In this document: positions 1,179 to 28,023 of the stretch, piece by piece
How positions within the stretch are numbered: position 1 is the first letter of the stretch
How the letters are laid out: every line of letters starts with the position of its first letter
DNA from: Pyrobaculum oguniense TE7
GTDB taxonomy: Archaea > Thermoproteota > Thermoprotei > Thermoproteales > Thermoproteaceae
Reading direction: 5' to 3'
Assembly (NCBI GenBank): GCA_000247545.1
Contig: CP003316.1
Coordinates: 1,831,233-1,895,232, forward strand
DNA: 64,000 nt
The notes under the pieces: model-generated
What the model saw: the letters and a program-made list of their open reading frames with translations, nothing else
Told to the model about the DNA's origin: nothing
Databases searched by the model: none
Translations under genes and position numbers: made by a program

Positions 1179-1221
1179 CAATAGTTAAATTGGATAAAGC
1201 TTAAACAGCGATGCAAAAACC

Positions 1222-1352
1222 CGCCGACCTGACACGTCCGCCTGACGGTTAAAAACGTCAGTCAGGCAGATTCTCAGGATCCTGGGCCCAGGATCCTGAC
1301 AGACAATAAGACTGACGAAATTTAGTTGTCAGGCTAGTCGGTCAGGTCGACG
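1222..1352 (+). repeat. Cloverleaf palindromic repeat, copy 1
   Basis: A closing pair ACCTGAC...GTCAGGT encloses three inverted repeats: CCTGAC/GTCAGG, the perfect palindrome CAGGATCCTGGG with its mirror half, and GACTGAC...GTCAGGCTAGTC. Six further copies lie at 10411, 11714, 24245, 26094, 28455 and 37513. This copy is in the forward orientation and ends 13 bases before a PaREP2b gene. Confidence 0.9.
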
Positions 1353-1365
1353 CTCTAAAGCAGAA

Positions 1366-2583
1366 ATGACGGCGAGCTCTGTATGGGCGGCGCTGAAATC
1401 CACAAAAATTTGCAGAGGCGGCGGCCTCATGGTGATTGGGATCTGCTACGTGTTGCGGGGGGAGAAGCTCACGGTGTATTTCAAAGACGGGGAGGGGAAC
1501 GAGTTGGGCCGCATCAACATGGGGTGGGACGGCGAAAGTTTGCGGGCAGTTTTCGGCGGTGCCAGGGAGAAGGCCGAACGCCTCGCCTCAATACTGAATG
1601 CGTTAGGCGCAAAGGTCAAGGCGAGACAATATGGCAACAAGTGGCGTGTGGAGTTGTCCACTGACTCCATTACAGCTATACGCCGTCCGGAGTGGCTGGA
1701 GGCGGTTAAGGCCCTTGTGGAGGAGCTCTACAGGTGCAGTGTGATAGATAGCAGGAAGAGGGATTATTTGCTGAGAAAGCTGGCGTTTGGTCCCAACGTC
1801 ATTGAGATAGCCGGAGTGGAGATGAGCGTGGAGTGGGAAGAGAGGGCTGGCTCTGAGGGGCTGAAAATCATATGCCAGCCGGGGTCGGCTGAGGCCTTCG
1901 AAGCTGTCGTGAAGGCGCTTAAAGAGGCGGGGTTCGAGGAAGGAGTGCAGTTTACGGCCAAGGCGCCAAAAAAGAGCAAGTACGGAGTTGCAAAATCTGG
2001 TCTTATATACCTCAAAATCCCGGCAAGCCTCTGGAGGCTGGAGGAGCTGAGGCAGCAAGGCGTGGGGTGGGCCGAAGAGGCGGTGAGGCGGCTGGAGGAA
2101 ATGGCAAAGGCCAGAGAACTCTACCACCTCGTGGAGGGGTACCTAAAGCTGGCGAGAGAAGCCGAGAGCATTGACCCCAGGGGTATGATTGTGGAGGATC
2201 CGGAAAGGGGCGTCAAAGCGGTTATAAGAGACGTAAAGTTGGCGTGGGACGGGATAAGGCCGAGGGTGGTGGTAGAGTACGAGGCGGGCGGCGTCGTGAA
2301 GTCCTTCTCCTTCACTTGGAGCATGTACGGGAACAGAAGGATCATGGCCAATGTGAAGCTAAACAAGGAGAGAGCCGCCGTACTCGCGGCGCTGACTGGA
2401 GACAACGAGCTGAGGAGGAAGAAGCGCACCACGCTTCACGCCACGCACCTAATTGCCCTCGTCAAGATAAAAGGTGTTGGCTGGCCGCTGCTGAAGTGGT
2501 ACGCCGAAGTGAAAGGCAAGCCGGAGAGGTATAAGCTCCTTCTGGAATTCGCTAACATGCCGTCACAGACGGGCGGCTCTTAA
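1366..2583 (+). CDS. PaREP2b-type repeat-family protein (short form)
   Basis: 405 residues. It is clearly homologous to the protein at 24406-25548 and to the last ~380 residues of the large protein at 45033-48665. Shared blocks include the FKDxxGNEL...NxxWDGxSLRA, LASILNALGA, ITAIRRxEWLEAVKALVEEL, LWRLEEL and VKIKGVGWxLLxWYAEV segments. I recognise this as the PaREP2b family known from Pyrobaculum; its function is not established. The ATG at 1366 follows the palindromic repeat directly. The ATG at 1429 (MVIGICYVLRG) starts nearer the conserved domain and is a plausible alternative. The stop overlaps the stop of the convergent radical-SAM gene. Confidence 0.8.
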   Translation: MTASSVWAALKSTKICRGGGLMVIGICYVLRGEKLTVYFKDGEGNELGRINMGWDGESLRAVFGGAREKAERLASILNALGAKVKARQYGNKWRVELSTDSITAIRRPEWLEAVKALVEELYRCSVIDSRKRDYLLRKLAFGPNVIEIAGVEMSVEWEERAGSEGLKIICQPGSAEAFEAVVKALKEAGFEEGVQFTAKAPKKSKYGVAKSGLIYLKIPASLWRLEELRQQGVGWAEEAVRRLEEMAKARELYHLVEGYLKLAREAESIDPRGMIVEDPERGVKAVIRDVKLAWDGIRPRVVVEYEAGGVVKSFSFTWSMYGNRRIMANVKLNKERAAVLAALTGDNELRRKKRTTLHATHLIALVKIKGVGWPLLKWYAEVKGKPERYKLLLEFANMPSQTGGS

Positions 2584-3416
2584 GGCGCTTTTCGGCCGCG
2601 CCCTTCCCACTCATACCAATACTTTCCGTTCAAGCTGTGCTCGGCGAGGAGTAGCTCAAAGTAGGCGCCGATGGCCTTGTCCAGCTCTCGTGTGGGAGCC
2701 CAGAAGGGTATCCCCCTCTCCCGCATGGCGGCCAGGTTGCTTCCGCGCGGGTGTAGCATTTCGCCGAATACCACTTCAGGCTCCAGCTCCGCTATTGCCT
2801 TAAACAGCCTATCCAAATCCCGCCTCCAGCCCTCCCGCGGTATGATAGGCGCCACGACGACGCCTATGCGCGCCCCAGCCTCCTTTGCCTTTTTCAGCAT
2901 GGCGAGCCTCGCGGTGGGAGGAGGCGCCCTGGGCTCGGCCGCGCGGGCGAAGGCGTCGTCCAGGGTCGGTGTGGAGGACATAAGGCGGATTTGTTGCTTG
3001 TACTTCACGAAGAGGTCTAGATCCTGCAACGCCAACGTCGACCTGGTGAGCACGTTGAAGCGGACGCCGTGGGGCAGGGCCGCCTCCAATATCCGCCTCG
3101 GCCACTTTTTAGGGAAGTACAGCTCGGGGAGGTACGGGTCATGTGTTGCAGACATGAGCACAACTTCGCCGCTCCATCTGCGCCACGGAGTTTTCATGAT
3201 TTCTTCCTCCAAGTTTGGCTTTACGTAGAGATAGGAGCCCCATCCTCTAAGCGCGTCCCTCGGCAACCTCCACGGGTTAAGCTTTTCGACAATGCGTTGC
3301 GCGTAGCAGAAAAGACAGCCGTGCGTACAGCCAACAGCAAAATTCACAGCCCAACCTGTCGAAAGGGCCTTACCGGTTTCCTCTTCGGATAGGGCCGAAG
3401 GCGTGACAAGCGTCAT
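2580..3416 (-). CDS. Radical SAM protein, spore photoproduct lyase-like (SplB/Rv2578c type)
   Basis: 278 residues. The CTHGCLFCYA motif (about residues 30-39) is the CxxxCxxC site that holds the 4Fe-4S cluster of radical SAM enzymes. The following SATHDPYLPEL, NVLTRSTL and APIIPREG segments match the spore-photoproduct-lyase-like branch, where many members have unknown substrates. The ATG is preceded at 25 bases by CTTTAAGAG on the minus strand, so it is probably leaderless. Activity on DNA lesions cannot be assumed. A role in modifying another molecule is equally possible. Confidence 0.8.
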   Translation of the reverse strand: MTLVTPSALSEEETGKALSTGWAVNFAVGCTHGCLFCYAQRIVEKLNPWRLPRDALRGWGSYLYVKPNLEEEIMKTPWRRWSGEVVLMSATHDPYLPELYFPKKWPRRILEAALPHGVRFNVLTRSTLALQDLDLFVKYKQQIRLMSSTPTLDDAFARAAEPRAPPPTARLAMLKKAKEAGARIGVVVAPIIPREGWRRDLDRLFKAIAELEPEVVFGEMLHPRGSNLAAMRERGIPFWAPTRELDKAIGAYFELLLAEHSLNGKYWYEWEGRGRKAP

Positions 3417-4484: not shown

Positions 4485-5072
4485 CTACGATTTGTCCAAG
4501 AGCTCGTGTGCCCTCTTTATGTAGTAGCTGTACGGCGGCTCGGCGGCAATGCCCAAATCGTAGTACAGGTGGAAGGCCTCTACCGCCTCTGGATTGCTGA
4601 GCGCCTTTCTCAGCTCCTCGGCCTTCTCGGCCTCGAAGGCCAGAACCTTGTCCAGAGCGGCTTTCAGCCCGCCTCTGTGCCCGAGCTCTGCCAGCACCAA
4701 GGCCTTCACGAGCTCTGAATAAACGCTGGACGTCCTCATGCTCTTTATGTTCTCCACGGCGTCTTCCACATGCGATAGACCCAGCTTAGCCGCGGCGCCC
4801 TCGAGGACAATTGCCATTATCTCGCGCGCCTCCCCCGCGTGGGGGTATTTGGCGTATATCCCCGACAGGTATTCGTACAGGAGCAGGCCTACCTCGGAGT
4901 CGCCCTTGACGAAGGCCGTGTGGTATAAGGCCTCAACAAACGGCTCTACAGGCCCCCACGGCCTCCTCGCCTGCCTCACCTCCCGCCCCAGCCTCTCCAC
5001 GACGGCGGCCCTCGCCTCCTGCCTGCCTTCAATTATAAGTCGAGGAATGTCGTCAAACTTAACCGAAGCCAT
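4485..5072 (-). CDS. Helical protein of unknown function
   Basis: 195 residues, almost all predicted helix with TPR-like spacing (ALYHTAFVKGDSEVGLLLYE; ALVLAELGHRGGLKAALDK). The ATG at 5072 (MASVKFDDI) is preferred over the TTG at 5081. No catalytic motif is visible. It sits downstream of the three-domain fusion gene on the same strand with a 30-base gap, so cotranscription is possible. Confidence 0.6.
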   Translation of the reverse strand: MASVKFDDIPRLIIEGRQEARAAVVERLGREVRQARRPWGPVEPFVEALYHTAFVKGDSEVGLLLYEYLSGIYAKYPHAGEAREIMAIVLEGAAAKLGLSHVEDAVENIKSMRTSSVYSELVKALVLAELGHRGGLKAALDKVLAFEAEKAEELRKALSNPEAVEAFHLYYDLGIAAEPPYSYYIKRAHELLDKS

Positions 5073-5103
5073 GGCGCACAACTAGTTTGGAAAAAAATAA
5101 GGT

Positions 5104-6672
5104 TTAACGCGGAGCGCAGAGTTGCAAAGCAGACAAAACCTCCTCCCTCGACTTGGCCTTCTTCAGCCCGTCCAGCGCCTCCTCGGGGCGGCGGCAGACT
5201 CTCTGAAACAGCGGCCTATTGAGGCGCGAATCGGTGTCCTCCCTCCCTCCCTTTGTCGCCCCATACAAGTCGTCTTTTGCCTGGGCCGCCACGCCCTCCA
5301 CATACCCCAACTCTGGACTCACCCCGGCCAGGCCATACGCGAACTCCCTAAAGGCGGCCTCCCTTTCGGCTGCCTTCAGCCAGTCCTTTAAGGCGGGCTC
5401 CCTCCTCGCGACCTCCAGCTCTAGCTCTGCCTTGACCGCCTCCACCATCCTCTCAAAGGTTTTTACAAGGGCCGCTTCGGCCCCCAGCCTCCTGGCCGCC
5501 CCCCTCGCCTTGACCATCAGGGCGATGCTGTCCACCACAGCGAGGTATATGCCCCTCCTAACCCACCACGCCTCTTCCACTACCCCCTCCTCGCTGTAGA
5601 GCCTGACTGTGTGCTCGTCCAGGATGTCGTCTATTATCCTGGCGGCGGTGGCTGCAAGCGTAATGACCTCCGCGGCGTCTCCGCCCACGACAACGCCTTT
5701 CCTCCTCAGCCTCTCGACGTAGCCCCTGTGCATCTTGACGCCGAGCGAGCTTATCCACTTGTCCACCAGGGGGCTGTGGACGTTGCCCGCCTTCTTCCAA
5801 GCGCGGAACCAGCTCTCCAGCAAAACCTCCTTGGTTATGAAGGGATTGAAGTAGCCTCTTATTGTCGAGTCTACCCCAAGCGAGCGGAAGACGCGCTCCG
5901 CCGCGCCGTCTAAGCGCTTTGCGTCCAGCCTGACCACAACGCTCGCCTCTCTGAGCTCTTCCAGCTGGCCGGAGAACAGCGCCTTTCTGTCAGCGTCGTA
6001 CGGATCGTCGGGCATGTCCCTCACGCTCACTATGAGCTCCCTGACCTCTTGCGGCACCTCCACAAAGAGGGGCACGGCTGGCCTGAGAGTGGCGTAGGAC
6101 ACGTGCACCACCTGCCAGAGGGACTTGGCCCCGTCGACGACTATGAACTCCTTCTCCGTGTCGAAGACGCCGTCTAGTATCAACCTCTCGGAGGCGGCAA
6201 AGGGGTTCTCCGCCTCAAGCCTGGCGAGCTCCTCCCCGTATTTGCCGACGCTGAACCTGGCCGAAACCTCCTTTCCCCACCTCACGTAGTGTGCGCCGAG
6301 GGCTTGCGCCAGCCCGTAGGCGAATGCGCTCTTCCCGGCCCCCGGGAGCCCAGAGACAAAGACAGAGCCGCCCACAGGCTCCTGCCGGGGCAGCGGGATG
6401 TCCACCAGCGCCTTGGCGTGCTTAGTGGCGGGGTGCGCCGCCAGCTTCACGTTGCGGAAGCCCATGCCCTCAAGCCTGGCCTTCGCCTTGAGCAGAGTTA
6501 TCCCGGAGGCCGCCGTGCTGTCAACGATCACCACCTCCTCGTATTCGTCTTTCTTTTGGAGCACCCTCTCCGGGATCAGCCTCTGGGAGTCCAGATACGC
6601 GAACTCGTAGCCGCGCCTGAACTGTCCGAACTGCTTCAATCCGCTTTTCAGAACGAAGACCGCTAACTTCAT
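5104..6672 (-). CDS. Three-domain fusion: PRTase-like, P-loop kinase-like, prenyl-synthase-like
   Basis: 522 residues. Residues ~40-75 contain VVIVDSTAASGITLLKAKAR, which resembles the PRPP-binding loop of phosphoribosyltransferases. Around residues 103-115, FVSGLPGAGKSAFAYG is a Walker A loop followed by a nucleotide-kinase-like region (RLILDGVFD, FIVVDG). The C-terminal ~230 residues look like a polyprenyl synthase: ARIIDDILDEHTVR resembles the first aspartate-rich motif, and KDDLYGATKGG...DTDSRL resembles the second. The histidine usually found before the first DD is isoleucine here. A TTAAATA box lies 28-34 bases upstream of the ATG at 6672. The three assignments are by motif only. The fusion suggests substrate channelling between phosphoribosyl and isoprenoid chemistry, which is inference. 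Confidence 0.6.
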   Translation of the reverse strand: MKLAVFVLKSGLKQFGQFRRGYEFAYLDSQRLIPERVLQKKDEYEEVVIVDSTAASGITLLKAKARLEGMGFRNVKLAAHPATKHAKALVDIPLPRQEPVGGSVFVSGLPGAGKSAFAYGLAQALGAHYVRWGKEVSARFSVGKYGEELARLEAENPFAASERLILDGVFDTEKEFIVVDGAKSLWQVVHVSYATLRPAVPLFVEVPQEVRELIVSVRDMPDDPYDADRKALFSGQLEELREASVVVRLDAKRLDGAAERVFRSLGVDSTIRGYFNPFITKEVLLESWFRAWKKAGNVHSPLVDKWISSLGVKMHRGYVERLRRKGVVVGGDAAEVITLAATAARIIDDILDEHTVRLYSEEGVVEEAWWVRRGIYLAVVDSIALMVKARGAARRLGAEAALVKTFERMVEAVKAELELEVARREPALKDWLKAAEREAAFREFAYGLAGVSPELGYVEGVAAQAKDDLYGATKGGREDTDSRLNRPLFQRVCRRPEEALDGLKKAKSREEVLSALQLCAPR

Positions 6673-6701: not shown

Positions 6702-7889
6702 TTATTTAAGCCTTTCCATTATGCTCCTCTTCGTCCTTTCCGGCATTCCGAAAAAGTCGTGCTTCAAATAGTGCTTTAAGGCCTCCCCGTCGGGGGACGG
6801 GAGGTAGTTAGACGCTATAACGGCCACCCCGGTGACCTCCCCCAGGTACATGGCGACGTCTTCAGTAATCGGCGTCTTGGTTCTGACATACGCCGTTTTG
6901 ACGCCCAGCTCATGCGACCACTCAATTTCGGCGTCCTCGTAGCCCAAGTGCTCCAGTTGGCGCCTCAGGTCTTTGCCGGGGTACTGCGCCTTTTTCGCAA
7001 AGTCCAGGACGTCCCGGCGCACTTTGTTCCTCCTCGTCAGTGCGATTGGTACGCCCCAATTCTCAGCGTAGAACTGCCCAGTATGTCTATACGCCTTCAG
7101 TCCTACTTCCTCGAACATGTTGAGCACGGCCCGCTCCAGAGCGGCGTCGAGGTTGTTCTTGACGCCGTAGAAGTACTCCGGCGAGCTGAGCGCTTCCTTG
7201 GCCTGCTCTGGCGTGAGGAAGCCCATTTTGAGCAATTTCTCCACGACGGTGCGCCTGTCGATGCCCCACGACCCCACGCTGACGCCTCTGTAGATGGCGC
7301 TCTCCCACCCCATGTCTTTCAGCGTTGTTAGCACGTCCCTTACAGCGGCGATGTTGTTGGGCGTGATGGGACCGACCTCTACGCTCACTCTGTCCGAGAA
7401 GTCGGCGGCGTGCCTGAGGCCCCTCAGCTGGAGCTCCTCCTGGACAGGGGTTCCGGTCTCAGCCGCCTTGGGGGTTATCGTTGTGCCGTAGTAGAGCTGA
7501 GTGTACGACGCCAAGTGCTCCCTAACCGTTTTGTCGTAAGCCGCCCTCCTCAGCGCCAAGAACTTCGCCTTAACGCCGAGCTTTTCTGCGGCGTCAAGCA
7601 CCTTGGGGATTTCGCTGGGGTACATCGAGGCGTCTCCCCTGGCCCCCATGATCACCAGAGACCTCTCCGAAACGAGCTTTGAGCCCGCCACAGACTCGGC
7701 GAACTCCTCCGGCGTGGCCAAGCGCCTGAGGCGGCCAGTGCCTATGTACGGCGCTGTAGAGTCAATCATCCGGTAGTAGCAGAACTGGCAACCTATGGTG
7801 CATCCCAGGACAACGTCCCCGTCGACGGCGTACCTCCTCTTGAACATCGGTGCCTCAGATAGGAGCAGGTACTCCCCGTACCCGATCAC
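6702..7889 (-). CDS. Radical SAM protein, unknown substrate
   Basis: 395 residues from a GTG at 7889. CTIGCQFCYYR near residue 30 is the CxxxCxxC cluster-binding motif. LVIMGARGDASMYP and the later TTITPKAAETGTP and VGPITPN segments fit a TIM-barrel radical SAM core. The start rests on the TTTATATA box at 7911-7918, 26 bases from the GTG. The longer frame from a TTG at 7979 would run through this promoter. It has a head-to-head arrangement with the gene at 8008. It is not close to a radical SAM family whose substrate I can name. Confidence 0.75.
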   Translation of the reverse strand: MIGYGEYLLLSEAPMFKRRYAVDGDVVLGCTIGCQFCYYRMIDSTAPYIGTGRLRRLATPEEFAESVAGSKLVSERSLVIMGARGDASMYPSEIPKVLDAAEKLGVKAKFLALRRAAYDKTVREHLASYTQLYYGTTITPKAAETGTPVQEELQLRGLRHAADFSDRVSVEVGPITPNNIAAVRDVLTTLKDMGWESAIYRGVSVGSWGIDRRTVVEKLLKMGFLTPEQAKEALSSPEYFYGVKNNLDAALERAVLNMFEEVGLKAYRHTGQFYAENWGVPIALTRRNKVRRDVLDFAKKAQYPGKDLRRQLEHLGYEDAEIEWSHELGVKTAYVRTKTPITEDVAMYLGEVTGVAVIASNYLPSPDGEALKHYLKHDFFGMPERTKRSIMERLK

Positions 7890-7910
7890 GGGAAAACCAG
7901 CAAACTGGTT

Positions 7911-7918
7911 TTTATATA
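7911..7918 (-). promoter_or_regulatory. Promoter box A that decides the radical SAM start
   Basis: TATATAAA on the minus strand, centred about 26 bases before the GTG at 7889. This is the standard archaeal TATA-box spacing for a leaderless transcript. Confidence 0.6.
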
Positions 7919-8007
7919 GATAGTAAAGACCTTTAGGACGGGGAGGAACCAGCACTCCTACGCTCCAGCACCATGTCAATCATAGACGGGCAGACGTAGG
8001 CGTTGAT

Positions 8008-8544: not shown

Positions 8545-8862
8545 CTACCATTTCATGCTAGTGAGGAACTTCTTGACATAGCTTTCATCGACGACATATG
8601 GCTTTAACAGCTCCACCTCCAGCTTGGCCACTCGCCCGTCCTCCGCAGTCCACACGGCCACCTCTGCGAGTCCGGAGAGGACGGCGGCAGGCTCGTCTTC
8701 GCGGACAATTGCGAAGTAGCGCCTGGGTAAGTCCTTCACGAGGCGCTCTGTTGGCGTATTTATTGCTTCGGCATTTACCCCGCTTGTGTGGGTAACTTCC
8801 ACCTTCGGCGGCTCAGAGAACAACACGTTGTAGGAAAAACGGGTGATGTACACGTACAACAT
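8545..8862 (-). CDS. Small protein coupled to the DprA-like gene, unknown
   Basis: 105 residues. The start ATG overlaps the TAA of the upstream DprA-like gene (TAATG), which indicates translational coupling. A longer open frame upstream overlaps that gene in another frame and has an Arg/Gly-rich non-natural composition, so I reject it. The protein is mixed alpha/beta (LMLYVYITRF; RRYFAIVRED; AVWTAEDGRVAKLEVELL), with no motif I recognise. Confidence 0.6.
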   Translation of the reverse strand: MLYVYITRFSYNVLFSEPPKVEVTHTSGVNAEAINTPTERLVKDLPRRYFAIVREDEPAAVLSGLAEVAVWTAEDGRVAKLEVELLKPYVVDESYVKKFLTSMKW

Positions 8863-9554
8863 TAGGCCGAGTTTCCGCCTCTCCAGCGTTGCACCGCCTC
8901 CCTGCACGCCTCCTCGACGACCTTGTCGGCGTCCGGCACGGGGACGGCGCCCATTTTCACCAACTCTTTGAAGCCCTTGATGACGTCGCCGTCGTTTGCC
9001 TGCGGCTCGGCTATGAGAACTCTCCTCCCCATCTCGGCGGCGAATCTGACCGTATGCGCGGTTCCCCACCCTGCTGACCTGAACTTCGCCTCGGCCACCA
9101 CCACGGCCGCGCTTATTCCACTTATTATCCAGTTTCTCTCCATTAGCCATGTTTTGACGCGTTTATCCTCTTTGGCCAGGTGAAGGCTGAGAACTGTTAA
9201 GCTGTTGTAGCTCAGCCTCCACAAAGCCTTGTTTAGTAATGCCCCATTCTCATAGATGTACGGCAGAACAGCAATAACGTGGCCGCCGGCCTCTTTGGCG
9301 CCGAGGGCGGCCGCCTCGTCTATTCCCCGCGCGAGCCCTGTGGCCACGGCGCACCCGCGGCGCGCGAGCTCAGCGCCTATTTTGCGCGCCAGCTCTCTGC
9401 CCTTTTCCGTCGGATCCCGCGTCCCCACAACGGCAACAGCCGGCTTGTTAGGCACCGGTGCGCCGGCTCTGAAGAGGAAGAGGGGCCTCCGCGGCGCTTC
9501 TCGCAACAAGGCTGGGTACTCGGCGTCTTCTGGCGTGATTTTGACCGCCCTCAT
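8862..9554 (-). CDS. DprA/Smf-like Rossmann-fold protein
   Basis: 230 residues. AVVGTRDPTEKGRELARKIG (about 42-61), VATGLARGIDEAAALGAKEA and GGHVIAVLP correspond to the nucleotide-binding-like Rossmann core of the DprA/Smf and LOG-like superfamily. In bacteria DprA loads RecA on incoming single-stranded DNA. In archaea lacking competence genes its role is unclear. The start is the ATG at 9554, with an AAAGGA-type sequence just before it. It has tight coupling to the following small gene. The domain stops early compared with bacterial DprA, which usually has a winged-helix tail. Confidence 0.7.
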   Translation of the reverse strand: MRAVKITPEDAEYPALLREAPRRPLFLFRAGAPVPNKPAVAVVGTRDPTEKGRELARKIGAELARRGCAVATGLARGIDEAAALGAKEAGGHVIAVLPYIYENGALLNKALWRLSYNSLTVLSLHLAKEDKRVKTWLMERNWIISGISAAVVVAEAKFRSAGWGTAHTVRFAAEMGRRVLIAEPQANDGDVIKGFKELVKMGAVPVPDADKVVEEACREAVQRWRGGNSA

Positions 9555-10410: not shown

Positions 10411-10543
10411 TTCGCTTGTCTGACAGACGTTCCTGACAGCCAAAATTCGTGTGTCAGGCTGTCGCTCAGGATGCTGAATTCAGGATCCTGAAAATCCGCC
10501 TGACTGACGTAAAAATCCGTCAGGTGGACGTGTCAGGTCGGCG
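10411..10543 (-). repeat. Cloverleaf palindromic repeat, copy 2 (GAATTC-core subfamily)
   Basis: The layout is the same as copy 1 but in the reverse orientation. The central palindrome has changed from GGGCCC to GAATTC (CTGAATTCAG), and the first arm loop and third arm differ. Together with copy 3, in the same orientation, it brackets the RadA-family gene. Confidence 0.85.
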
Positions 10544-10746
10544 TACCGGAGGGGGGAAAAGAGGGAGGTCAGCGGCTTCCCGCACAATGTCCGCCTGTCT
10601 TCAAATGCTGTGCTGTTGACAAGCCACAAAACGCCGCATTGGGCGGCTCAAGCTGGAGCCGCCCAGCAAAAGACGTAGATGTCTTAACAACTCGGGAACA
10701 AAAGCTCGTTCCAACGGCGGTACAGCCACTGGAGCCCTGGAAAACA
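10544..10746. other. Intergenic region with a 9-bp hairpin upstream of the RadA-family gene
   Basis: No gene is supported. GGGCGGCTC (10641-10649) pairs with GAGCCGCCC (10656-10664). It could be a terminator-like or RNA structure, but I see no promoter in front of it. Confidence 0.35.
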
Positions 10747-10772: not shown

Positions 10773-11708
10773 GTGTCTAAGAGGCGGGACGACCTCTCAT
10801 CGCTAGAGGGGGTGGGGCCGAAGACTTTGGAAAAGCTCAAAGAGCTGGGGGTCGTTTCGGTGGAGCACCTAGCGGAATTTACCGTAGAGGAGTTGGTAGA
10901 GGCTGGCATTGAGTATGACAGGGCAGTTAAGCTCCTGCAGCAAGCCCTGGCGAAGGTCGGTACGGCGAGATCCCTAAATGTGATGGAAATGAAGCAGAGG
11001 CAGTACAAGACGTTTAAGACTGGCGTCGCCCAGTTTGACGAGAAGACGCCGTGGAAGGGCATTAGAGAGGCGTTTATCTACGAGTTCGCCGGGGAGTTCG
11101 GCGCGGGGAAGTCAATGCTGGCGCACCAGCTCTCAGTCGCCGCGCTTAAGGAGGGGTTCACGGGGAGGGTGGTGTACATAGACACGGAGGGGACCTTCAG
11201 CCACGAGCTGGTGGAGGCCGTGGCCAAGAGGTTTGAGGCCGACATCGACAAGGTGGGGGAGTCCATATACGTATACCAGCCGGCCAACGTGGTCCAGCTG
11301 GAGCAGATCGTGAAGTTTGAGATCCCGAAGCACGTCGCGGAGGGCTGCCGCCTCGTAGTTGTGGATACCATCACGGCTCTCTACAGGGCTGAATTCGTGG
11401 GCAGAGAGTACCTCGCCGCCAGGCAGCAGCGCATACACTACTTAGTGGACTGGCTGAGGAGGCACGCCAGAACCTTCGGCTTGACCGCTGTGCTTACTAA
11501 TCAAGTTATGGACGTCCCGGAGATATTCGCCGCGGGGGTGAAGAGGCCGGCTGGGGGCAACGTCCTCGCCCACGCGGTAAACGCCAGGTTTATGATGAGC
11601 CGGCCCAACAAGATGAGGCCGGAGGGGTATATATGGCCTCTGGACGTCCCCGGGATGGCGCCTGATACGCGCATTGAGTACAGAATTACGGGAGCTGGCC
11701 TAGAATAG
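10773..11708 (+). CDS. radA: RadA-family recombinase
   Basis: 311 residues from a GTG. The N-terminal helix-hairpin-helix domain (~8-60, LEGVGPKTLEKLKELGVV) is followed by a RecA-type ATPase core. Walker A is GEFGAGKS (107-114), Walker B is RLVVVDTIT, and the L2-proximal motif is VLTNQVMDVPEIFAAG. It catalyses strand exchange in homologous recombination, if canonical. Walker A has Ala and Ser where archaeal RadA usually has GEFGSGKT, and the core is clearly divergent, so an HhH-bearing RadA paralogue is possible. It is isolated from other repair genes and lies between two direct copies of the palindromic repeat. Confidence 0.85.
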   Translation: MSKRRDDLSSLEGVGPKTLEKLKELGVVSVEHLAEFTVEELVEAGIEYDRAVKLLQQALAKVGTARSLNVMEMKQRQYKTFKTGVAQFDEKTPWKGIREAFIYEFAGEFGAGKSMLAHQLSVAALKEGFTGRVVYIDTEGTFSHELVEAVAKRFEADIDKVGESIYVYQPANVVQLEQIVKFEIPKHVAEGCRLVVVDTITALYRAEFVGREYLAARQQRIHYLVDWLRRHARTFGLTAVLTNQVMDVPEIFAAGVKRPAGGNVLAHAVNARFMMSRPNKMRPEGYIWPLDVPGMAPDTRIEYRITGAGLE

Positions 11709-11713
11709 TATAG

Positions 11714-11845
11714 GCGCCGACCTGAGTGATTAACCTGACAACTTTTTCCCATCGGTCAGGTAGTGGGTCAGGATCCTGGGCCCAGGATCCTGAGAATCCG
11801 CCTGACTGACGTTTTTAACCGTCAGGCGGACGTGTCAGGTAAGCG
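11714..11845 (-). repeat. Cloverleaf palindromic repeat, copy 3
   Basis: Reverse orientation, with the GGGCCC core. The third arm is CCTGAC...GTCAGG with a loop (GATGGGAAAAAG on one strand) unlike copies 1, 4 and 7, yet the pairing is kept. It starts 6 bases after the RadA-family stop and ends 16 bases before the stop of the next gene. Confidence 0.85.
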
Positions 11846-11860
11846 TGTGTTTTGAAAAAA

Positions 11861-16039: not shown

Positions 16040-17407
16040 GTGACTGAAGTTGTTGAGCTGAAGAGGGCAGTTGTAAAAAACGACGTAGCAGCCCTTATCA
16101 AAAACCCTGACTTGATAAATTACGCCGGAGTTCCCTCCGGCGGCCTCACCCCCTTCCAGCTGGCGGTTGTGCTGGATCGCGTAGCGATAGTCAAGCTGAT
16201 CCTCGAGCACAGCCCAGAGCTTGCGAATTGGGCTGACTGGAGGAGGAGAGATGAGTTGGAGAAGCTCAAGGTCTTCGGCGTGGAGGCGCCAAACGGGACG
16301 CCGCTCCACGACGCCGCCTACTTCTGCCGGCCGGAAGTAGCCAAGCTTTTGTTGCAATACGGCGCCGACCCCGACGCCAGGGACAAACACGGCAATACGC
16401 CGCTCCACTACGCGGCGAGGAGGCGCTGTGTTGCAGTTGTGGAGTTGCTGCTCGACCGCGGCGCTGACCCCTACGCAGAGGGGGCGTTTGGCAGAGCGCC
16501 GTACGACGAGGCGTCTGACCCCCGCGTCGCCTACGCCTTCCTCCGCCGCGGAGTCAGCAGCTTGAAGCTGCGGAGGATTATCGCGGACTACGCCTGCCAC
16601 TCGGAGCCAGACGCCGAGTACATCGACGTCTTGTCCCCAGAGGACGCCGCCTTCTGTGCAAACCGCCAGCTGGCAGCAAAGGCGCTGGAGCGCGGCCGCT
16701 ATGACATCGCCGTCGCCGCCGCGGCGCAGGCTGGCGACGTCGCAATTGTGGAGAGGATACTGGCGGAGAGGCCGGAGCTGGCGCCCCTTGCGTTCAAATT
16801 CGCGGCGTCGCCGGCAGTGGTGGAGGCCGCGGAGAGGCGGTACAAGCCCTCCGCGGAAGAGCTGCAAGCCTTGCTCGAAGAGGCGGTGGAGCGCGGACAT
16901 GCGGAGCTCGTTGCGTACCTCTTGAACCGCGGCCTAAGCGCCGACTGCCGGCTGCTTGCGCTGGCTAAGGACGGCAAGATACTCGAGGCGGTTCTGAGCA
17001 GGGGGACTCCGCGGTGCGACAAGCCGTTCAGCCGCTTCGACAGCGCCGAGCTGCTGGAAGTTCTGGCGCGGTACTACGCCCCCACGCCGGAGGAGCTGTG
17101 CGAGGCCCTGGCGTCGGGCAAAGCCGCCAAGGCAGAGCTCTTGGCCAAGTACGTCAAGGCCGCCGACCCCAAATGCGTGTGCATGTACTTCCGCCCGCGC
17201 ATTGCGGCCATCCTCGTGGAGAGGGGCCTCCTCGACCCCAACGCGAGGTGCGGCAACTCTACAATCCTCCACTTGGCGGCCTCCAGCTGCGACCGCGGGC
17301 TCGCAGAGCTGCTGCTCAGCCGCGGCGCCGACGCGTCGACCGTCGACGCCCAGGGCAGAACCGCCCCCGAGGTCGCCTGCGGAGAGCTCTTAGACCTATT
17401 CATCTAG
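16040..17407 (+). CDS. Ankyrin-repeat protein 1
   Basis: 455 residues from a GTG. The N-terminal segment VELKRAVVKNDVAALIKNPD is shared by the whole array. Residues ~80-175 hold canonical ankyrin repeats (TPLHDAAYFC..EVAKLLLQYGADPDARD, then NTPLHYAARR). A central helical region carries YIDVLSPEDAAF and AAAAQAGDVAIVERILAERP. The C-terminus returns to ankyrin repeats ending PEVACGELLDLFI. It is probably a cytoplasmic protein-binding scaffold. No enzymatic domain is visible. It is the first of six tandem paralogues. Confidence 0.85.
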   Translation: MTEVVELKRAVVKNDVAALIKNPDLINYAGVPSGGLTPFQLAVVLDRVAIVKLILEHSPELANWADWRRRDELEKLKVFGVEAPNGTPLHDAAYFCRPEVAKLLLQYGADPDARDKHGNTPLHYAARRRCVAVVELLLDRGADPYAEGAFGRAPYDEASDPRVAYAFLRRGVSSLKLRRIIADYACHSEPDAEYIDVLSPEDAAFCANRQLAAKALERGRYDIAVAAAAQAGDVAIVERILAERPELAPLAFKFAASPAVVEAAERRYKPSAEELQALLEEAVERGHAELVAYLLNRGLSADCRLLALAKDGKILEAVLSRGTPRCDKPFSRFDSAELLEVLARYYAPTPEELCEALASGKAAKAELLAKYVKAADPKCVCMYFRPRIAAILVERGLLDPNARCGNSTILHLAASSCDRGLAELLLSRGADASTVDAQGRTAPEVACGELLDLFI

Positions 17408-17494
17408 CTGGCCTCCTTCCAGCCCTAAGGCGAGGGCTCCCTTAGCGGTTCACAGGTTTGTGTCATTCCTCGTTTCTTACACGTAACTCCGCAC

Positions 17495-18886
17495 ATGAGT
17501 TCCCCAGTTATCGAACTAAAAAAACTCGTCATCAAGAACGACGTCATAGCCCTCAAGATAAATCCCGGACTTTCTCAATATGCCGGAGTTTTGCTTGGAG
17601 ACCGTACTGCGCTTCAATTAGCAGTTATATTGGACAGGAGAGAAATTGTTGAACTGTTGCTTCAAAACAACAAAGAATTGCTCAATTGGGCGGACTGGAG
17701 AAAAAAAGAGGAGCTCAAAGCGCTCGAGGCTTTTGGGATTGATGTTCCATACGAGACGCCGCTTCATACGGCGTCGCGGTTCTGCCGGCCGGAAATCGCC
17801 GAGCTTCTGTTGCAATACGGCGCCGACCCCAATGCCAGGGACAGAGACGGCTTTACGCCGCTCCACATCGCGACAATTCATAAATGCGCTTCCGTCGTAG
17901 AGTTGTTGCTTAGACATGGAGCTGATCCTCATGCAGTAGACGGCAACAACAAGAGGCCGTATGACGCGGTTCAGACTCCTCAGCTTGCGTACTTGTATTT
18001 ACGCCATGGTATCTCTAGCGGCTATCTTCGGACGCTGGTGGCCAAGCATTTGTGTTACGAGTTTGTGCCCGAGTACCTTGACGTCCTGTCGCCTGACGAT
18101 CTTGATTTTTGCGTCAATCGAGAGTTTTTACAACGTGTTCTGCAATACAGGCGCTATGACATAGCAATCATCACTGCAACGCGGCTAGGCGACGTTGCCA
18201 CCGTAGAGAGGATATTGGCAGAGAGGCCTGAGCTCGCCTCTGTTGCGTTTAGGTACGTCGATACGCCGGAGATGTTAGAGGTTGTACTGAAGTTCTACAA
18301 ACCTTCTGACGAAGACTTGCAGTGGCTGTTTGAGATAGCCGTTGAGTATGACCGCCAAGAACTTGCCATATATCTTCTGTTGAACCTCAACATTAGAGTC
18401 GATTGCTACCATTTGAAAAATGCAAAGAGTGTTAGAGTTCTCGAGGAAATCTTGAAGAGATCTGGACGGCTGGAGTGCTATGGCTTGATATCTTCTCACA
18501 TTGCTGTGCCAGGGAAATTAGAAGTGCTAGCGCGCTATTATGAATTTACAGCTGACGACCTCTGTTATGCCCTTGAAATGGGCTACGCACAATCCGCGAG
18601 AATTATCGCGAAGCATGTTGTGTTTGTCACCCCTAAACACATTGACTGTATCTGCGAATACTTTGACGAAGAGGTTCTGAAGATTTTGCTGGAGCGCGGC
18701 CTCCTTGATCCCAATGCAAGGTGCGGCAAAACGCTGCTTCTCCACGAAGCAGCGTGGCACTGTGCCCGCGGGCTGGTTGATGTTTTGCTCCGCAACGGCG
18801 CCGATGTTACGGCCACTGACGCCTATGGCAGGTTCGCTCCCGAGGTCGCGTGCCGCGAGGTCGCGGATCTGTTTGCCCGTCTTTAA
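17495..18886 (+). CDS. Ankyrin-repeat protein 2
   Basis: 463 residues from the ATG at 17495 (MSSPVIELKKLVIKNDVIAL). It has the same three-part layout as its neighbours: N-terminal repeats (CRPEIAELLLQYGADPNARD), a helical middle (YLDVLSPDDLDFC; TATRLGDVATVERILAERP) and C-terminal repeats. The coding sequence is noticeably less GC-rich than copies 1 and 3, so the paralogues have different histories or drift. A block of about 45 bases encoding CRPEIAELLLQYGAD is nearly identical to that of its neighbours. Confidence 0.85.
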   Translation: MSSPVIELKKLVIKNDVIALKINPGLSQYAGVLLGDRTALQLAVILDRREIVELLLQNNKELLNWADWRKKEELKALEAFGIDVPYETPLHTASRFCRPEIAELLLQYGADPNARDRDGFTPLHIATIHKCASVVELLLRHGADPHAVDGNNKRPYDAVQTPQLAYLYLRHGISSGYLRTLVAKHLCYEFVPEYLDVLSPDDLDFCVNREFLQRVLQYRRYDIAIITATRLGDVATVERILAERPELASVAFRYVDTPEMLEVVLKFYKPSDEDLQWLFEIAVEYDRQELAIYLLLNLNIRVDCYHLKNAKSVRVLEEILKRSGRLECYGLISSHIAVPGKLEVLARYYEFTADDLCYALEMGYAQSARIIAKHVVFVTPKHIDCICEYFDEEVLKILLERGLLDPNARCGKTLLLHEAAWHCARGLVDVLLRNGADVTATDAYGRFAPEVACREVADLFARL

Positions 18887-18887
18887 T

Positions 18888-18908
18888 CCTCTTTTTTTAA
18901 GACGTCTG
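18888..18908 (+). promoter_or_regulatory. Array-type promoter (T-run plus AAGACGTCTG) before ankyrin gene 3
   Basis: The run TTTTTTTAAGACGTCTG is shared in position and sequence with the elements before ankyrin genes 4 and 5 and the seventh-gene remnant. Its AT box is about 22 bases before the ATG. The T-run may also terminate the preceding gene. Confidence 0.6.
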
Positions 18909-18917
18909 TTTTAATGC

Positions 18918-20327
18918 ATGAAATCCCCAGTTCTCGAATTGAAAAAGATCGTCGTGAAAAACGACGAGGCGGCCCTCGCTAAGAACCCAGAGCTGTTGAA
19001 CTACGCCGGGGTTCCGCTCAACCGCGTAACGCCTCTTGAGCTTGCGGTTAGAATGAGCCGCGTCCAAATCGTGAAGATGATCCTCGAGCAAAACCCGGCG
19101 CTGGTAAATTGGGCAGACTGGCGAAAGAGGGAGGAGCTTGAAAAGCTCAAAGCGCTTGGCGTGGAGGTGCCCTACGGCACGCCCCTCCACGAGACCGCTG
19201 AGTACTGCCGGCCGGAAGTCGCCGAGCTTCTGTTGCAATACGGCGCCGACCCAAACGCGCAAGACCGCTCTGGGAGCACGGCTCTCCACTACGCGGCGGA
19301 GAGCAGGTGCGCCCCCGTAGCGGAGCTTCTGCTCAAGCACGGCGCTGACCCGCGCGTAAAAGACGGCATATATGGGAAAAGGCCGTATGAGATGGTAAAA
19401 GACCCCCACACCGCATACGTGTTTTTGAAGCACGGCGTTTCTGACCCGAACCTCATGGAGCTCGTCGCCGGGCACCTCTGCCGCGGGGGGCTCGCGCCAG
19501 AGTACCTCGACGTGCTGACGCCGTACGTGTTTGGCTCATGCCCGTCGCCAGAGCTCGCGGAGCTGGCCATGGGGCGCGGCCGCCTGGACATCGCCGTCGC
19601 AGTCGCGGCCCAAGTGCCCAGGCTAGACGTGGTTGAGCGAGTTCTCGCAGAGAGGCCGGATCTCGCGCACTTGGCGGTGAGGTACGCCGCGGCGCCGGAA
19701 GTGCTGGAGCTGGCCGAGAGGTACTACACGCCTTCCGCCGAGGAGCTGCAGGCGTTGCTTGAAAAAGCCATAGCGTACGGCCACGCGAGGCTTGTTGAAC
19801 GCCTGCTGGACAGAGAGGGGCTTGACGTTGACTGTGCAATGCTCCTAAAGGCAAAGAGCCCAGAAACTGTCGCCGCGGTTTTGAAAAAGAGGCGGCTGCA
19901 GTGCAGCGGAATTTCGCGGCGCTTTCTCGACGACCCCGCATCGCTGAAAGCGCTGTTGCAATACTACCAGCCCACTGCCGACGACTTGTGCTACGCCTTA
20001 GAGGGTCACTACGGCGGCAAACATATCGAGCGCCGCAGTGAAGCGGTGAAGATGCTGGCCGAACGCGTCGCATCGGTAAATATCGACTGCATTTGCGAAT
20101 ACTTCAGAAAAGACATAGTAATGCTGTTAATCGAGAGGGGCGTTCTGAACCCCAACGCCCGGTGCGGGGACAGGTCGCTTTTGCACATAGCCGCATCGGA
20201 GTGCGACCGCGAGCTTGCAGAGTTTTTGCTCCGCCATGGCGCTGATACCGCCGCTACTAGCGACAGCGGAGAGCTTGCGGCAGAGTCGGCGTGTAGAGAA
20301 GTCTTGGACTTGTTCATCAGCCGTTAA
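18918..20327 (+). CDS. Ankyrin-repeat protein 3
   Basis: 469 residues from the ATG at 18918 (MKSPVLELKKIVVKND). Repeats are visible at about 90-170 (TPLHETAEYC; EVAELLLQYGADPNAQD; TALHYAAESRCAPVAELLLK) and at the C-terminus (LLHIAASECDRELAEFLLRH). The middle region follows the array pattern YLDVLTPYVFGSCPSPELAE. It has the shared promoter at 18888-18908. It ends with ACREVLDLFISR, the same tail motif as the other full-length members. Confidence 0.85.
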   Translation: MKSPVLELKKIVVKNDEAALAKNPELLNYAGVPLNRVTPLELAVRMSRVQIVKMILEQNPALVNWADWRKREELEKLKALGVEVPYGTPLHETAEYCRPEVAELLLQYGADPNAQDRSGSTALHYAAESRCAPVAELLLKHGADPRVKDGIYGKRPYEMVKDPHTAYVFLKHGVSDPNLMELVAGHLCRGGLAPEYLDVLTPYVFGSCPSPELAELAMGRGRLDIAVAVAAQVPRLDVVERVLAERPDLAHLAVRYAAAPEVLELAERYYTPSAEELQALLEKAIAYGHARLVERLLDREGLDVDCAMLLKAKSPETVAAVLKKRRLQCSGISRRFLDDPASLKALLQYYQPTADDLCYALEGHYGGKHIERRSEAVKMLAERVASVNIDCICEYFRKDIVMLLIERGVLNPNARCGDRSLLHIAASECDRELAEFLLRHGADTAATSDSGELAAESACREVLDLFISR

Positions 20328-20456
20328 GAGCCCTGGAGGCGTTTTGAAAGCGCCAAAGAGGGCAACCGCGCCCTACGCTTTTCTGCAACCGTTTTATACG
20401 GGGCGCCAGGCAGAGCGCGTTCTCAGCTACGCGTCCCGAGGCTACCCACTGCTAAT

Positions 20457-20472
20457 CTTTGTTTTTAAGACG
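20457..20472 (+). promoter_or_regulatory. Array-type promoter before ankyrin gene 4
   Basis: CTTTGTTTTTAAGACG, matching the elements at 18888, 21946 and 22698. It lies about 20 bases before the ATG at 20485. Confidence 0.55.
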
Positions 20473-20484
20473 GCTGTGTGGTAC

Positions 20485-21945
20485 ATGAATTCAGAAGTCC
20501 TCAAGTTAAAACAAGCAATTGCGAAAAACGATATTAGACTTCTTGAGGAAAACCCCGAACTGTTGGACTACGCATTTGTGGTAGATGGGATGCCCTCGAT
20601 CCACCTTGCAGTGGCGCTGAACAGAGTCCAAATCGTGAAGATGCTCCTTAAACGAAACCCAGAGCTCGTCAACTGGGGCGACCAGCGAGTTGCCAAGGAG
20701 CTGGCCAAGTTGAAGGTGTTCGGCGTAAAGGTTCCCGACGAGACAATGCTCCACGTGGCGGCTCGCTACTGCCGGCCGGAAGTAGCCGAGCTTTTGTTGC
20801 AACACGGAGCAGACCCAGACGTGCTGGACGACTACTGGCGCACGCCGCTTCACTACGCCGCATCTGTCGGCTGTGTTCCCGTAGCGGAGTTGCTGCTTAG
20901 ACATGGAGCTGACCCCAATGAACAAGATAGTTATTGGCATACGCCGCTCCACATAGCCGCTGAAGGCGGCCATGCGGCCATAGTTGAGTTGTTGCTTAAG
21001 CACGGCGCCGACCCAAACGCTGAGGGCCGCAACGGGATGAAGCCCTACGAGTTGGCACACGACCTGCGCACTGCGTATGCGTTCCTGCGCTTCGCAGGTC
21101 CCAACGCCAAATTAATGAGGTTTGTCGCCCGCGAGCTTTGCGAGAATCCAAGCGCATTTTCTCCTGAATACCTCGATGTCTTGACGCCTGACTCGTTTGA
21201 CCAATGCCAGTCGCCAGAGCTCGTGAAGCTGGCCTTGGACCGCCCGGACGTTGCAATTGCCATTGCGGCCCAGCTCGGCGACGTTGAAACAGTGGAAAAA
21301 ATACTGGTAGAGAGGCCGGAGCTGGCCTCAATTGTGGCCTCACACGCTTCAACGCCAGAAGTGCTGGAGCTAGCAGAGAAGCACTACACGCCTTCCGCCG
21401 AGGAGTTGCAGGAGTTACTCAAAAGAGCCGCAGCGCGCGGACACGCGCGGCTGGTGGCACACTTATTAGACCGCGGCCTTGTGGCCAGCTGCGACATGTT
21501 GACTGAAAATCCAGAGGTCGTCGACGTGGTTTTGAAGAGGGGGTTGCAGTGCGACGGAATATTGAGACGGTACATTGACAATCACGACGTGTTGAGGGTC
21601 GTGCTGAAGTACTACAGGCCGACTGCCAACGACTTGTGTGCCGCGTTGAAGGTCGGCGCAAAGACCGCTAGGCTAATCGCCGAACACGTCGAGTCTGTAG
21701 ACACCTATTGCCTTTGTGAGCACCTCGACTTAGACGTGGCATTTATCCTGGTAGAGCGCGGCCTCCTTGACCCAAACACCAGGTGCAAAGGCTGGCCGCT
21801 CCTCCACATAGCGGCGTCTGAGTGCCACCGCCCGCTCGCGGAGGCGCTGCTCCGCCGCGGAGCCGACGTCGCGGCGCTCAATCCCGCTGACAATCTGGCG
21901 GCAGAGGTGGCGTGCAAAGAGGTCTTAGACCTCTTTGCCCAATAA
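20485..21945 (+). CDS. Ankyrin-repeat protein 4
   Basis: 486 residues. The start at 20485 (MNSEVLKLKQAIAKND) is set by alignment to the other members and by the shared promoter. The in-frame upstream extension overlaps the previous gene's end and is ignored. It has one more N-terminal ankyrin unit than its neighbours: TPLHYAASVGCVPVAELLLR followed by TPLHIAAEGGHAAIVELLLK. This shows unit gain within the array. It ends VACKEVLDLFAQ. Confidence 0.85.
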   Translation: MNSEVLKLKQAIAKNDIRLLEENPELLDYAFVVDGMPSIHLAVALNRVQIVKMLLKRNPELVNWGDQRVAKELAKLKVFGVKVPDETMLHVAARYCRPEVAELLLQHGADPDVLDDYWRTPLHYAASVGCVPVAELLLRHGADPNEQDSYWHTPLHIAAEGGHAAIVELLLKHGADPNAEGRNGMKPYELAHDLRTAYAFLRFAGPNAKLMRFVARELCENPSAFSPEYLDVLTPDSFDQCQSPELVKLALDRPDVAIAIAAQLGDVETVEKILVERPELASIVASHASTPEVLELAEKHYTPSAEELQELLKRAAARGHARLVAHLLDRGLVASCDMLTENPEVVDVVLKRGLQCDGILRRYIDNHDVLRVVLKYYRPTANDLCAALKVGAKTARLIAEHVESVDTYCLCEHLDLDVAFILVERGLLDPNTRCKGWPLLHIAASECHRPLAEALLRRGADVAALNPADNLAAEVACKEVLDLFAQ

Positions 21946-21963
21946 TCCTTTTTTTTAAAGACG
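21946..21963 (+). promoter_or_regulatory. Array-type promoter before ankyrin gene 5
   Basis: TCCTTTTTTTTAAAGACG, the same element as before genes 3 and 4, about 22 bases before the ATG at 21977. Confidence 0.55.
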
Positions 21964-21976
21964 TTTGTAATGACAC

Positions 21977-22678
21977 ATGAATTCGGAAATCTTTAAGCTA
22001 AAAGAGGCTATCGAAAAAAACGATATTGAAACGCTAAAGAGGTCGCCCGGGTTGCTGGACTTCGCTGGCGTGGTGGTAGAGCGAGGAATGACGTCTATAC
22101 ATATAGCGGTTGAACGGGACAGGAGAGAGGTAGTGAAGATGTTCCTGGAACATAACCCAGAGCTTGCGAATTGGGCGGACTGGCGGAGGAGAGATGAGTT
22201 GGGGAAGCTCAAGGCCTTCGGCGTGGAGGCGCCCTACGGCACGCCCCTTCACACCGCTGCGGAATATTGCCGCGTTGAAATAGCCGAACTCTTGCTCCAG
22301 CGCGGGGCTGACCCTAATGCAAAGACTTGGTGGGGCTGGACGCCTCTCCACTACGCGGCGTGGAAACGATGTACTCCTGTGACCGAATTGCTACTCCGCC
22401 ACGGAGCTGATCCCTACGCGAAAGATGGAGTGGATCAAACGCCGTATGATTTAGTGTCTGATCCGCATGTTGCATTGTCATTCATACGTCGTGGCATTGG
22501 TGGTAAAAAGCTGTGGGAAATCGTCATAAACTACGCACGCTACCAGAGCTCGCGCCAGGATCTAAATTCCATCATCAGTTTTGAGCAATTGTTGCCCAGA
22601 TATGAGCTGCCAATTATAAGGTCAGAGCCGATTAACAGGAAGTGGTTGTCTATTTGCAATGATGATAGCTTTTGGTAA
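21977..22678 (+). CDS. Ankyrin-repeat protein 5 (truncated)
   Basis: 233 residues, half the usual length. The N-terminal half matches the family (MNSEIFKLKEAIEKND; CRVEIAELLLQRGADPNAKT; TPLHYAAWKRCTPVTELLLR; PYDLVSDPHVALSFIRRG). After about residue 190 it runs into unrelated sequence (FEQLLPRYELPII...). The central and C-terminal ankyrin parts are lost. It could still be made as a short binding protein or be a decaying gene. Confidence 0.75.
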   Translation: MNSEIFKLKEAIEKNDIETLKRSPGLLDFAGVVVERGMTSIHIAVERDRREVVKMFLEHNPELANWADWRRRDELGKLKAFGVEAPYGTPLHTAAEYCRVEIAELLLQRGADPNAKTWWGWTPLHYAAWKRCTPVTELLLRHGADPYAKDGVDQTPYDLVSDPHVALSFIRRGIGGKKLWEIVINYARYQSSRQDLNSIISFEQLLPRYELPIIRSEPINRKWLSICNDDSFW

Positions 22679-22697
22679 TTCTCGTTTTTTAACTAAT

Positions 22698-22717
22698 CCT
22701 TGTTTTTAGGACGTCTT
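22698..22717 (+). promoter_or_regulatory. Array-type promoter before the seventh-gene remnant
   Basis: TCCTTGTTTTTAGGACGTCT keeps the array element, although the gene behind it has decayed. Confidence 0.5.
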
Positions 22718-22725
22718 TCTAACGT

Positions 22726-22833
22726 ATAGAGTCGGTCTTAGAATTAAAAAAGGTTATTGCCCAAAACGACGTAGAGGTTCTTAAAAACCCCCGAATTTTT
22801 GGGGTCGACGTTCCCTTCGGAACGTCCTTCTGA
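22726..22833 (+). pseudogene. Remnant of a seventh ankyrin-array gene
   Basis: Reading from ATA at 22726 gives IESVLELKKVIAQNDVEVL, then KNPRIFGVDVPFGTSF and a stop. The first part matches the family N-terminus (xSPVLELKKIVVKND..LxKNP). FGVDVPFGT matches a motif about 60 residues further on in the full proteins (GVEVPYGTPLH). The start ATG has become ATA, the segment between the two motifs is deleted, and the frame ends at once. The promoter element is still in place. Confidence 0.7.
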
Positions 22834-22879
22834 AACATTGGGCAGAACAATCCTTGTTTTTCTTCTCCAAGTTGTTGCC

Positions 22880-24244: not shown

Positions 24245-24375
24245 CGCTTACCTGACCGACTAGCCTGACAACTAAATTTCGTCAGTCTTATCGTCGGTCA
24301 GGATCCTGGGCCCAGGATCCTGAGAATCCGCCTGACCGGTGAAAAAAAGAGTCAGGCGGACGTGTCAGGTCGGCG
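24245..24375 (-). repeat. Cloverleaf palindromic repeat, copy 4
   Basis: Reverse orientation, with the perfect GGGCCC core palindrome. The first arm loop is a T-run (CTTTTTTT with CACCGG), as in copies 6 and 7. The third arm matches copies 1 and 7. It ends about 30 bases before a PaREP2b gene, as copy 1 does before the other PaREP2b gene. Confidence 0.9.
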
Positions 24376-24405
24376 TAGCCCAGGATTATTAAAAAACTTG
24401 AAAAG

Positions 24406-25903: not shown

Positions 25904-26104
25904 ATGCAGGTCTTCGCGCCGGAGCTTCCGCCTCGCGCCCTGCACCTGTGTGCCAGAGTCGCTGGATGCGGCTCTGGAAAAACACAACGATGGTTGTCTC
26001 AGTATATTCAAACGGTTAACCCCTTTCTTGGGCATGGCCGAGCGCCGTCTTCCGCCGTCAACTTCAAACCGTGGTCAATACCTCTAGCAACAACGCCGGC
26101 CTGA
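25904..26104 (+). pseudogene. Possible fragment of an ATPase or helicase-like gene
   Basis: A 66-residue frame contains VAGCGSGKTQRW, which resembles motif I of SF2 helicases (AxxGxGKT). Nothing else in it is recognisable, and the frame runs into palindromic repeat copy 5. It is at best a broken remnant. The motif could also be chance. Confidence 0.2.
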
Positions 26105-26224
26105 CTTCCGATCCTGACAGCCAAAATTCGTGTGTCAGGCTGTCTGTCAGGATGCTGAATTCAGGATGCTGACTGTCCGCCTGACCGACGTTTTCGGCCG
26201 TCAGGTGGACGTGTCAGGTCGGCG
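26094..26224 (-). repeat. Cloverleaf palindromic repeat, copy 5 (GAATTC-core subfamily)
   Basis: Reverse orientation. The core reads CAGGATGCTG, AATT, CAGGATGCTG, so the inner CTGAATTCAG palindrome is kept. The third arm (CAGCCAAAATTCGTGTGTC) is shared with copy 2 only, which defines a second subfamily. Confidence 0.8.
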
Positions 26225-26326
26225 TTTTGCTATGTATATTGCGGCGAGCTTGGCGAGGGCTGGCCTCCGGAGGCCTGTGTGGGCGGCGGCGTACCGGTCG
26301 CCGTCTTTAACCACGTCGTAGCCGTG
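26201..26326 (-). pseudogene. C-terminal fragment of an unknown gene
   Basis: The minus-strand frame reads HGYDVVKDGDRYAAAHTGLR, then RPALAKLAAIYIAK, before entering the repeat. Its upstream part has been replaced by the GC-rich RNA element at 26326. The codon pattern looks like real protein, but I do not recognise it. Confidence 0.3.
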
Positions 26327-28000: not shown

Positions 28001-28023
28001 GTCTCTGTTTGCGTAAATACACA

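Follow-up and report, generated by a model that had tools for sequence, protein, structure and literature searches.

Our analysis of a 64,000-nucleotide stretch of the Pyrobaculum oguniense TE7 genome (the window; positions 1,831,233–1,895,232 of a 2,436,033-bp contig) revealed a gene for a predicted 522-amino-acid protein that joins a PRPP-motif-like N-terminus, a UPF0200-like P-loop kinase domain and a polyprenyl-synthase-like domain in one chain (window positions 5104–6672, minus strand; 1,836.3–1,837.9 kb on the chromosome). All of its recognizable parts fall within known superfamilies; the combination is new and was not found elsewhere in the collections searched. We tentatively propose that the gene is borne by a mobile element and that its product, in which a UPF0200-like kinase and a diphosphate domain derived from an isoprenyl synthase are fused to the PRPP-motif-like element, works with a radical-SAM protein encoded beside it. 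Judged from the residues that it keeps, the fusion is most likely an active, repurposed putative enzyme dependent on ATP and on a Mg-bound diphosphate. With a second contig the genome amounts to 2,452,920 bp, and it has been published as a chromosome and an extra-chromosomal element (PMC3558965).

The reading frame runs on the minus strand from an ATG at 6672 through 522 codons to a stop that ends at 5104; the opposite strand carries five in-frame stops across the same interval and was ruled out. GC content by codon position (0.63/0.42/0.81) is alike across the three thirds of the gene and resembles that of neighboring genes, so the fusion reads as a single coding gene. Along the chain lie, in order, VVIVDSTAASGITL (residues 47–60), SGLPGAGKSAF (107–117), IIDDILDE (346–353) and KDDLYG...DTDSR (466–483). 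An initial annotation of this DNA had described three ordered motifs in one 522-residue chain, and its coordinates proved exact, with the strand now fixed as minus; it also knew of no standard enzyme with such an architecture, and no family in the curated libraries spans the whole protein. A short AP2-domain match in Pfam (25 residues, E 0.0017) lay under the cut-off and was set aside, and a single-sequence AlphaFold model of the full chain was uninformative (pLDDT 40).

The middle of the protein (residues 101–265; 5878–6372, minus strand) is, from its sequence, a distant homolog of the archaeal UPF0200/AdkA-like P-loop kinases. Profile–profile comparison by hhalign with a UPF0200-type profile of 13 proteins gave a score of 102.7 over 134 columns (P 3.3e-16), compared with at most 25 for 150 shuffled controls and at most 43 for open reading frames of the window. 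In tblastn, residues ~103–250 matched small UPF0200-like kinases in dozens of Thermoproteota genomes, with E values down to 1.2e-6, and the best match among solved structures was the Sulfolobus UPF0200/AdkA-like kinase (PDB 3lw7, 3h0k; E 0.011); P-loop matches to this domain in curated libraries were all below threshold. The Walker A motif GLPGAGKS (residues 108–115; 6328–6351, minus strand) keeps the invariant positions of the family pattern GxPGxGK[ST], namely G108, P110, G111, G113 and K114. Within the Walker-B-like VVDGxxS segment, the DGxRS motif is represented by D180, G181, K183 (a conservative replacement of Arg) and S184, and the R..xDDP lid motif by R218, D222, D223 and P224. These features, over ~134 residues, are shared with the UPF0200/AdkA-like kinases (3lw7, 3h0k; SSO1041), which, unlike the fusion, are stand-alone proteins of ~180–200 amino acids that carry GDxxR and RDxRE motifs. 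In the fusion GK replaces GD and the Arg of GDxxR is gone, and RDxRE is absent; we therefore class the domain as a distant homolog and not as a UPF0200 member. With the P-loop, VVDG.(K)S and R..DDP retained and the two other motifs lost, the nucleotide-binding core is predicted to be intact and the acceptor site to be altered. None of the papers searched mentions UPF0200 by name.

The C-terminal domain (residues ~285–500; 5173–5820, minus strand) is likewise, from its conserved positions, a distant homolog of the all-trans polyprenyl synthases. It gave no match to Pfam PF00348 even at E 10, and profile–profile comparison was therefore needed. Against two sets of polyprenyl synthases, hhalign scored 51–54 over ~180 residues (P 1e-6 and 2e-7) with both aspartate motifs in register, compared with at most 29 for shuffled sequences and at most 26 for window open reading frames; this ~180-residue alignment extends over the host's GGPP-synthase-type enzymes and the L019 family of synthases from another Thermoproteota family. 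Direct searches were consistent with it: tblastn of the fusion matched one polyprenyl synthase (genome G113; 36% identity over 117 amino acids, E 1.3e-4), and phmmer gave 3.4e-6 in a small sequence set. The first aspartate-rich motif, DDILD (FARM; residues 348–352; 5617–5631, minus strand), is in register with the family DDxxD and has all three aspartates (D348, D349, D352). In the second (SARM; Q464-A-K-D467-D468; 5269–5283, minus strand), Q464, D467 and D468 of the family Q..DDxxD are retained and the third Asp is absent. K313, R316 and R357 are also kept at the catalytic center, with GGKRxR changed to GVKMHR, KT to R437-E438, and the second Arg of the FARM pair to Leu. The order and spacing of DDxxD, Q..DD and GxK..R are thus common to the fusion and the synthases (PF00348), whereas the fusion differs from them in its altered KT, RR and third SARM Asp, in its lack of a PF00348 match and in the position of the domain behind a kinase domain. 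Because neither the KT lysine nor the third Asp of the SARM is retained, catalysis by this domain may have been lost.

What can be said of the N-terminus? Its ~95 residues (6388–6672, minus strand) resemble a Type I phosphoribosyltransferase (PRTase) just over residues 43–80, around the PRPP-like motif VVIVDSTAASGITL (6493–6534, minus strand). Pfam PF00156 reached 19.5 bits (cut-off 26.3; E 6.4e-4) over positions 88–123 of its 158. Against Hpt and archaeal PRTases together, hhalign scored 31.8 over 38 residues (P≈1e-4; 200 shuffles at most 19.8); against archaeal PRTases alone it scored 26.1, barely over controls of up to 24.7. The PRPP motif calls for two adjacent acidic residues followed by [ST]G.[ST], whereas VVIVDSTAASGITL has D51-S52, with Ser in the place of the second acid. 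By eye MKLAVFVLKSGLK looks like the 'VLKG' loop of Hpt sequences; the hhalign alignment stops short of it. A 102-residue AlphaFold model of the region is alpha/beta (low confidence, pLDDT 57) and retrieves, at Z 5.2, the HGPRTs 3acc and 4lyy together with many folds of the generic Rossmann-like type. The label 'PRTase-like' is weak because the likeness spans 38 residues and one acidic residue is lost; the region may be described as a PRPP-motif-like beta-loop-alpha-beta element, which it has in common with Type I PRTases such as Hpt, while the remainder of their ~150-residue domain is not recognizable in it. Hence, of the three domains that the initial annotation saw joined, domain searches of each third bear out the kinase-like and prenyl-synthase-like ones, both well above controls, and the PRTase-like one weakly.

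Immediately upstream of the fusion gene, ending 29 bp before it, lies a gene for a 425-amino-acid radical-SAM protein (6702–7979, minus strand), and the two are probably co-transcribed. Its CX3CX2C motif occurs at CTIGCQFC; Pfam Radical_SAM gave 18.8 bits, below the cut-off. By hhalign it aligns over ~212 residues with the Rv2578c/COG1533-like radical-SAM family (score 69.6, P 3.8e-9, against a maximum of 24 in 60 shuffles). This stretch and the CX3CX2C motif are what it shares with Rv2578c, PA0069 and COG1533-like proteins, from which it differs in its length of 425 amino acids and in having additional sequence at the C-terminus. The collections searched yielded no close relatives of this partner. 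Its sole match beyond its own genome (G280, E 1e-3) has the appearance of a B12-binding-type radical-SAM protein and was taken as generic similarity. Downstream of the fusion gene, a 198-amino-acid orphan open reading frame (4485–5081, minus strand) follows a T-rich gap, and its membership in the same operon is uncertain.

The radical-SAM and fusion genes are probably cargo of a recently acquired mobile element or virus and not part of core metabolism. Several observations argue for this. The fusion architecture was absent at the protein level from 61 relatives, 398 Thermoproteota genomes and, for the C-terminal part, 81 genomes of the class, as well as from genome, viral (three fusion-derived queries), phage and plasmid collections. 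The searches returned only kinase-domain-type matches and one prenyl-synthase match. The gene is a singleton, and its lack of an ortholog or conserved neighborhood in the collections searched counts against the model proposed below. At the DNA level, no match to the gene pair beyond chance length was found in relatives. A published comparison lists the surrounding region, 1,825–1,870 kb, among those that P. oguniense has and P. arsenaticum lacks (PMC3558965, Table 5). GCAAAGAAGGCGCAGTACCCCGGCAAAGACCTGAGGCGCCAG, the first spacer of one of the genome's CRISPR arrays (13 repeats, at about C1:952,341–953,218), matches the radical-SAM partner gene at 6957–6998 (minus strand) in 39 of 42 nucleotides, 35 of them in an exact run at 6958–6992 (E 2.4e-15). 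It counts against the model that none of the other 38 spacers extracted matches the window significantly, and that this one of the 39 falls in the partner gene and not in the fusion. The mismatches fall at spacer nucleotides 3, 6 and 42; if the seed is the repeat-proximal start of the spacer, two of them lie within it, which would fit an escape from self-targeting. A second radical-SAM gene of the island (278 amino acids; 2580–3416, minus strand) is 47% identical to the radical-SAM protein ORF301 of Acidianus two-tailed virus (ATV) and has relatives of 63–64% in just two of 60 related genomes. Finally, PaRep2b and palindromic repeats surround the fusion gene. The initial annotation had suggested a pathway linking phosphoribosyl transfer, phosphorylation and polyprenyl diphosphate chemistry; a general pathway enzyme is not supported by the singleton status of the gene, its mobile island and the adjoining orphan radical-SAM gene matched by a host spacer. 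A prenyl-phosphosugar or lipid, which the annotation gave as an example, is a possible product.

In conjunction, these data lead us to propose the following model. The fusion would first have been carried by a virus- or plasmid-like element and now resides in the P. oguniense chromosome. A phosphoribosyl or phosphate group is a possible ligand of its N-terminal PRPP-motif-like element, and the kinase domain would perform ATP-dependent phosphorylation of a non-standard acceptor. The C-terminal domain, predicted to be all-alpha, would bind Mg2+ and an allylic or isoprenyl-type diphosphate and transfer or remove a group, and the radical-SAM partner would modify the product further, yielding an element-specific modified lipid or nucleotide. 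Repurposing appears to fit better than random decay, because the metal- and ATP-binding residues, among them the P-loop, DDxxD and the paired SARM Asp, are kept, while the changes fall at substrate-pocket positions and in GDxxR and RDxRE of the kinase domain and KT and the second Arg of the FARM pair in the C-terminal one.

The main rival to this model is that the protein is a partly decayed chimera of domains captured by an element, folded and non-catalytic, with a role in binding, as a decoy, or with none at all. We consider this rather unlikely, though well worth weighing: both domains have lost roughly half of their strongly conserved positions (19 of 40 retained in the kinase, 18 of 42 in the prenyl synthase), the PRTase-like N-terminus is truncated, and the gene is a singleton in an island rich in repeats and PaRep elements. 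An intact 522-codon frame and strong third-position GC speak against it, and the losses have spared the P-loop and most metal-binding aspartates.

Improbable, to a greater degree, is a second alternative, in which the C-terminal domain is an active isoprenyl diphosphate synthase variant fed by the kinase domain, for example through phosphorylation of an isoprenyl phosphate, and alters lipids for an enveloped archaeal virus or element. The retained DDILD, K313, R316, R357, Q464 and D467-D468, and the long alignment with host GGPP-synthase-type and L019-type enzymes, would suit such an activity; so would the enveloped filamentous viruses that infect Thermoproteales (PMC7189273, abstract). The KT lysine is replaced by Arg, however, the second FARM Arg by Leu, and the third SARM Asp is missing; moreover, the P. 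oguniense genome already holds two ordinary polyprenyl synthases elsewhere, and the kinase family resembles nucleotide kinases and is not one of the known isoprenyl phosphate kinases. A literature search for virus-encoded prenyl synthases in archaea found no paper.

It is conceivable, although we give it very little credence, that the pair serves nucleotide hypermodification: the kinase domain would convert a group such as hydroxymethyl, carried by a base or nucleotide, into an activated, allylic-like diphosphate, the prenyl-synthase-derived domain would displace the diphosphate at its Mg2+-DDxxD site, and the radical-SAM protein would finish the modification. If this were true, isoprenoid-synthase chemistry would have been recruited for DNA or nucleotide modification. 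Similarly remote is a viperin-like antiviral system, in which a radical-SAM enzyme and a nucleotide kinase yield a modified nucleotide. The kinase domain in the adjoining gene and faint matches of the partner to pVip (E 0.03) and to the NCBIfam viperin model (E 0.2) hint at it. Those scores lie far below threshold, however (10.8 bits against a viperin cut-off of 180), and the partner fits the Rv2578c/COG1533-like family much better (P 3.8e-9). The viperin cysteine motif takes the form CN..C.FC, which the partner lacks. That the motifs arose by chance in an unrelated orphan protein is hardly credible, for even though no part of the fusion reaches the cut-off of any curated family, the profile–profile scores of 102.7 and 51–54 exceed control maxima of 43 and 29, and conserved residues are in register across whole domains.

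What is the relevance of the repurposed fusion that we favor? If active, it would show that an archaeal mobile element brings along diphosphate chemistry of its own next to a radical-SAM enzyme, and the viruses of hyperthermophiles might then have custom lipids or modified nucleotides. If inactive, it would illustrate how domains are shuffled in the 'dark matter' islands of archaea. The spacer-matched radical-SAM gene, together with the fusion, may also serve as bait for finding the parent element.

The window has further features of note. No RNA families were detected at window positions 1–40000. A MITE-like, near-palindromic repeat of ~139 nucleotides, with ends CGCYKACCTGAC...GTCAGGTCGGCG, occurs at 1215–1353 (minus strand), 10413–10544, 11714–11852, 24245–24376, 26094–26225, 28455–28586 and 37515–37640 (minus strand), and further copies lie beyond the window, around C1:717 kb, 1826 kb and 1827 kb; the inverted copies at 1215–1353 and 11714–11852 bracket 10.4 kb containing the fusion gene. 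Also present are a DprA-like (SLOG) gene (8862–9554, minus strand; PF02481, E 1.3e-38) and, on the island, a RadA/Rad51-family gene (10773–11708, plus strand), to which a stretch at C1:681,567–682,442 is similar, with 86% DNA identity. Paralogous open reading frames, read as ankyrin-repeat proteins, form a tandem array at 16040–24232 (plus strand) with repeated DNA families. Two similar TnpB-like open reading frames (26864–28024, minus strand; 38043–39209, plus strand) are inverted relative to each other and 83% complementary over 430 nucleotides.
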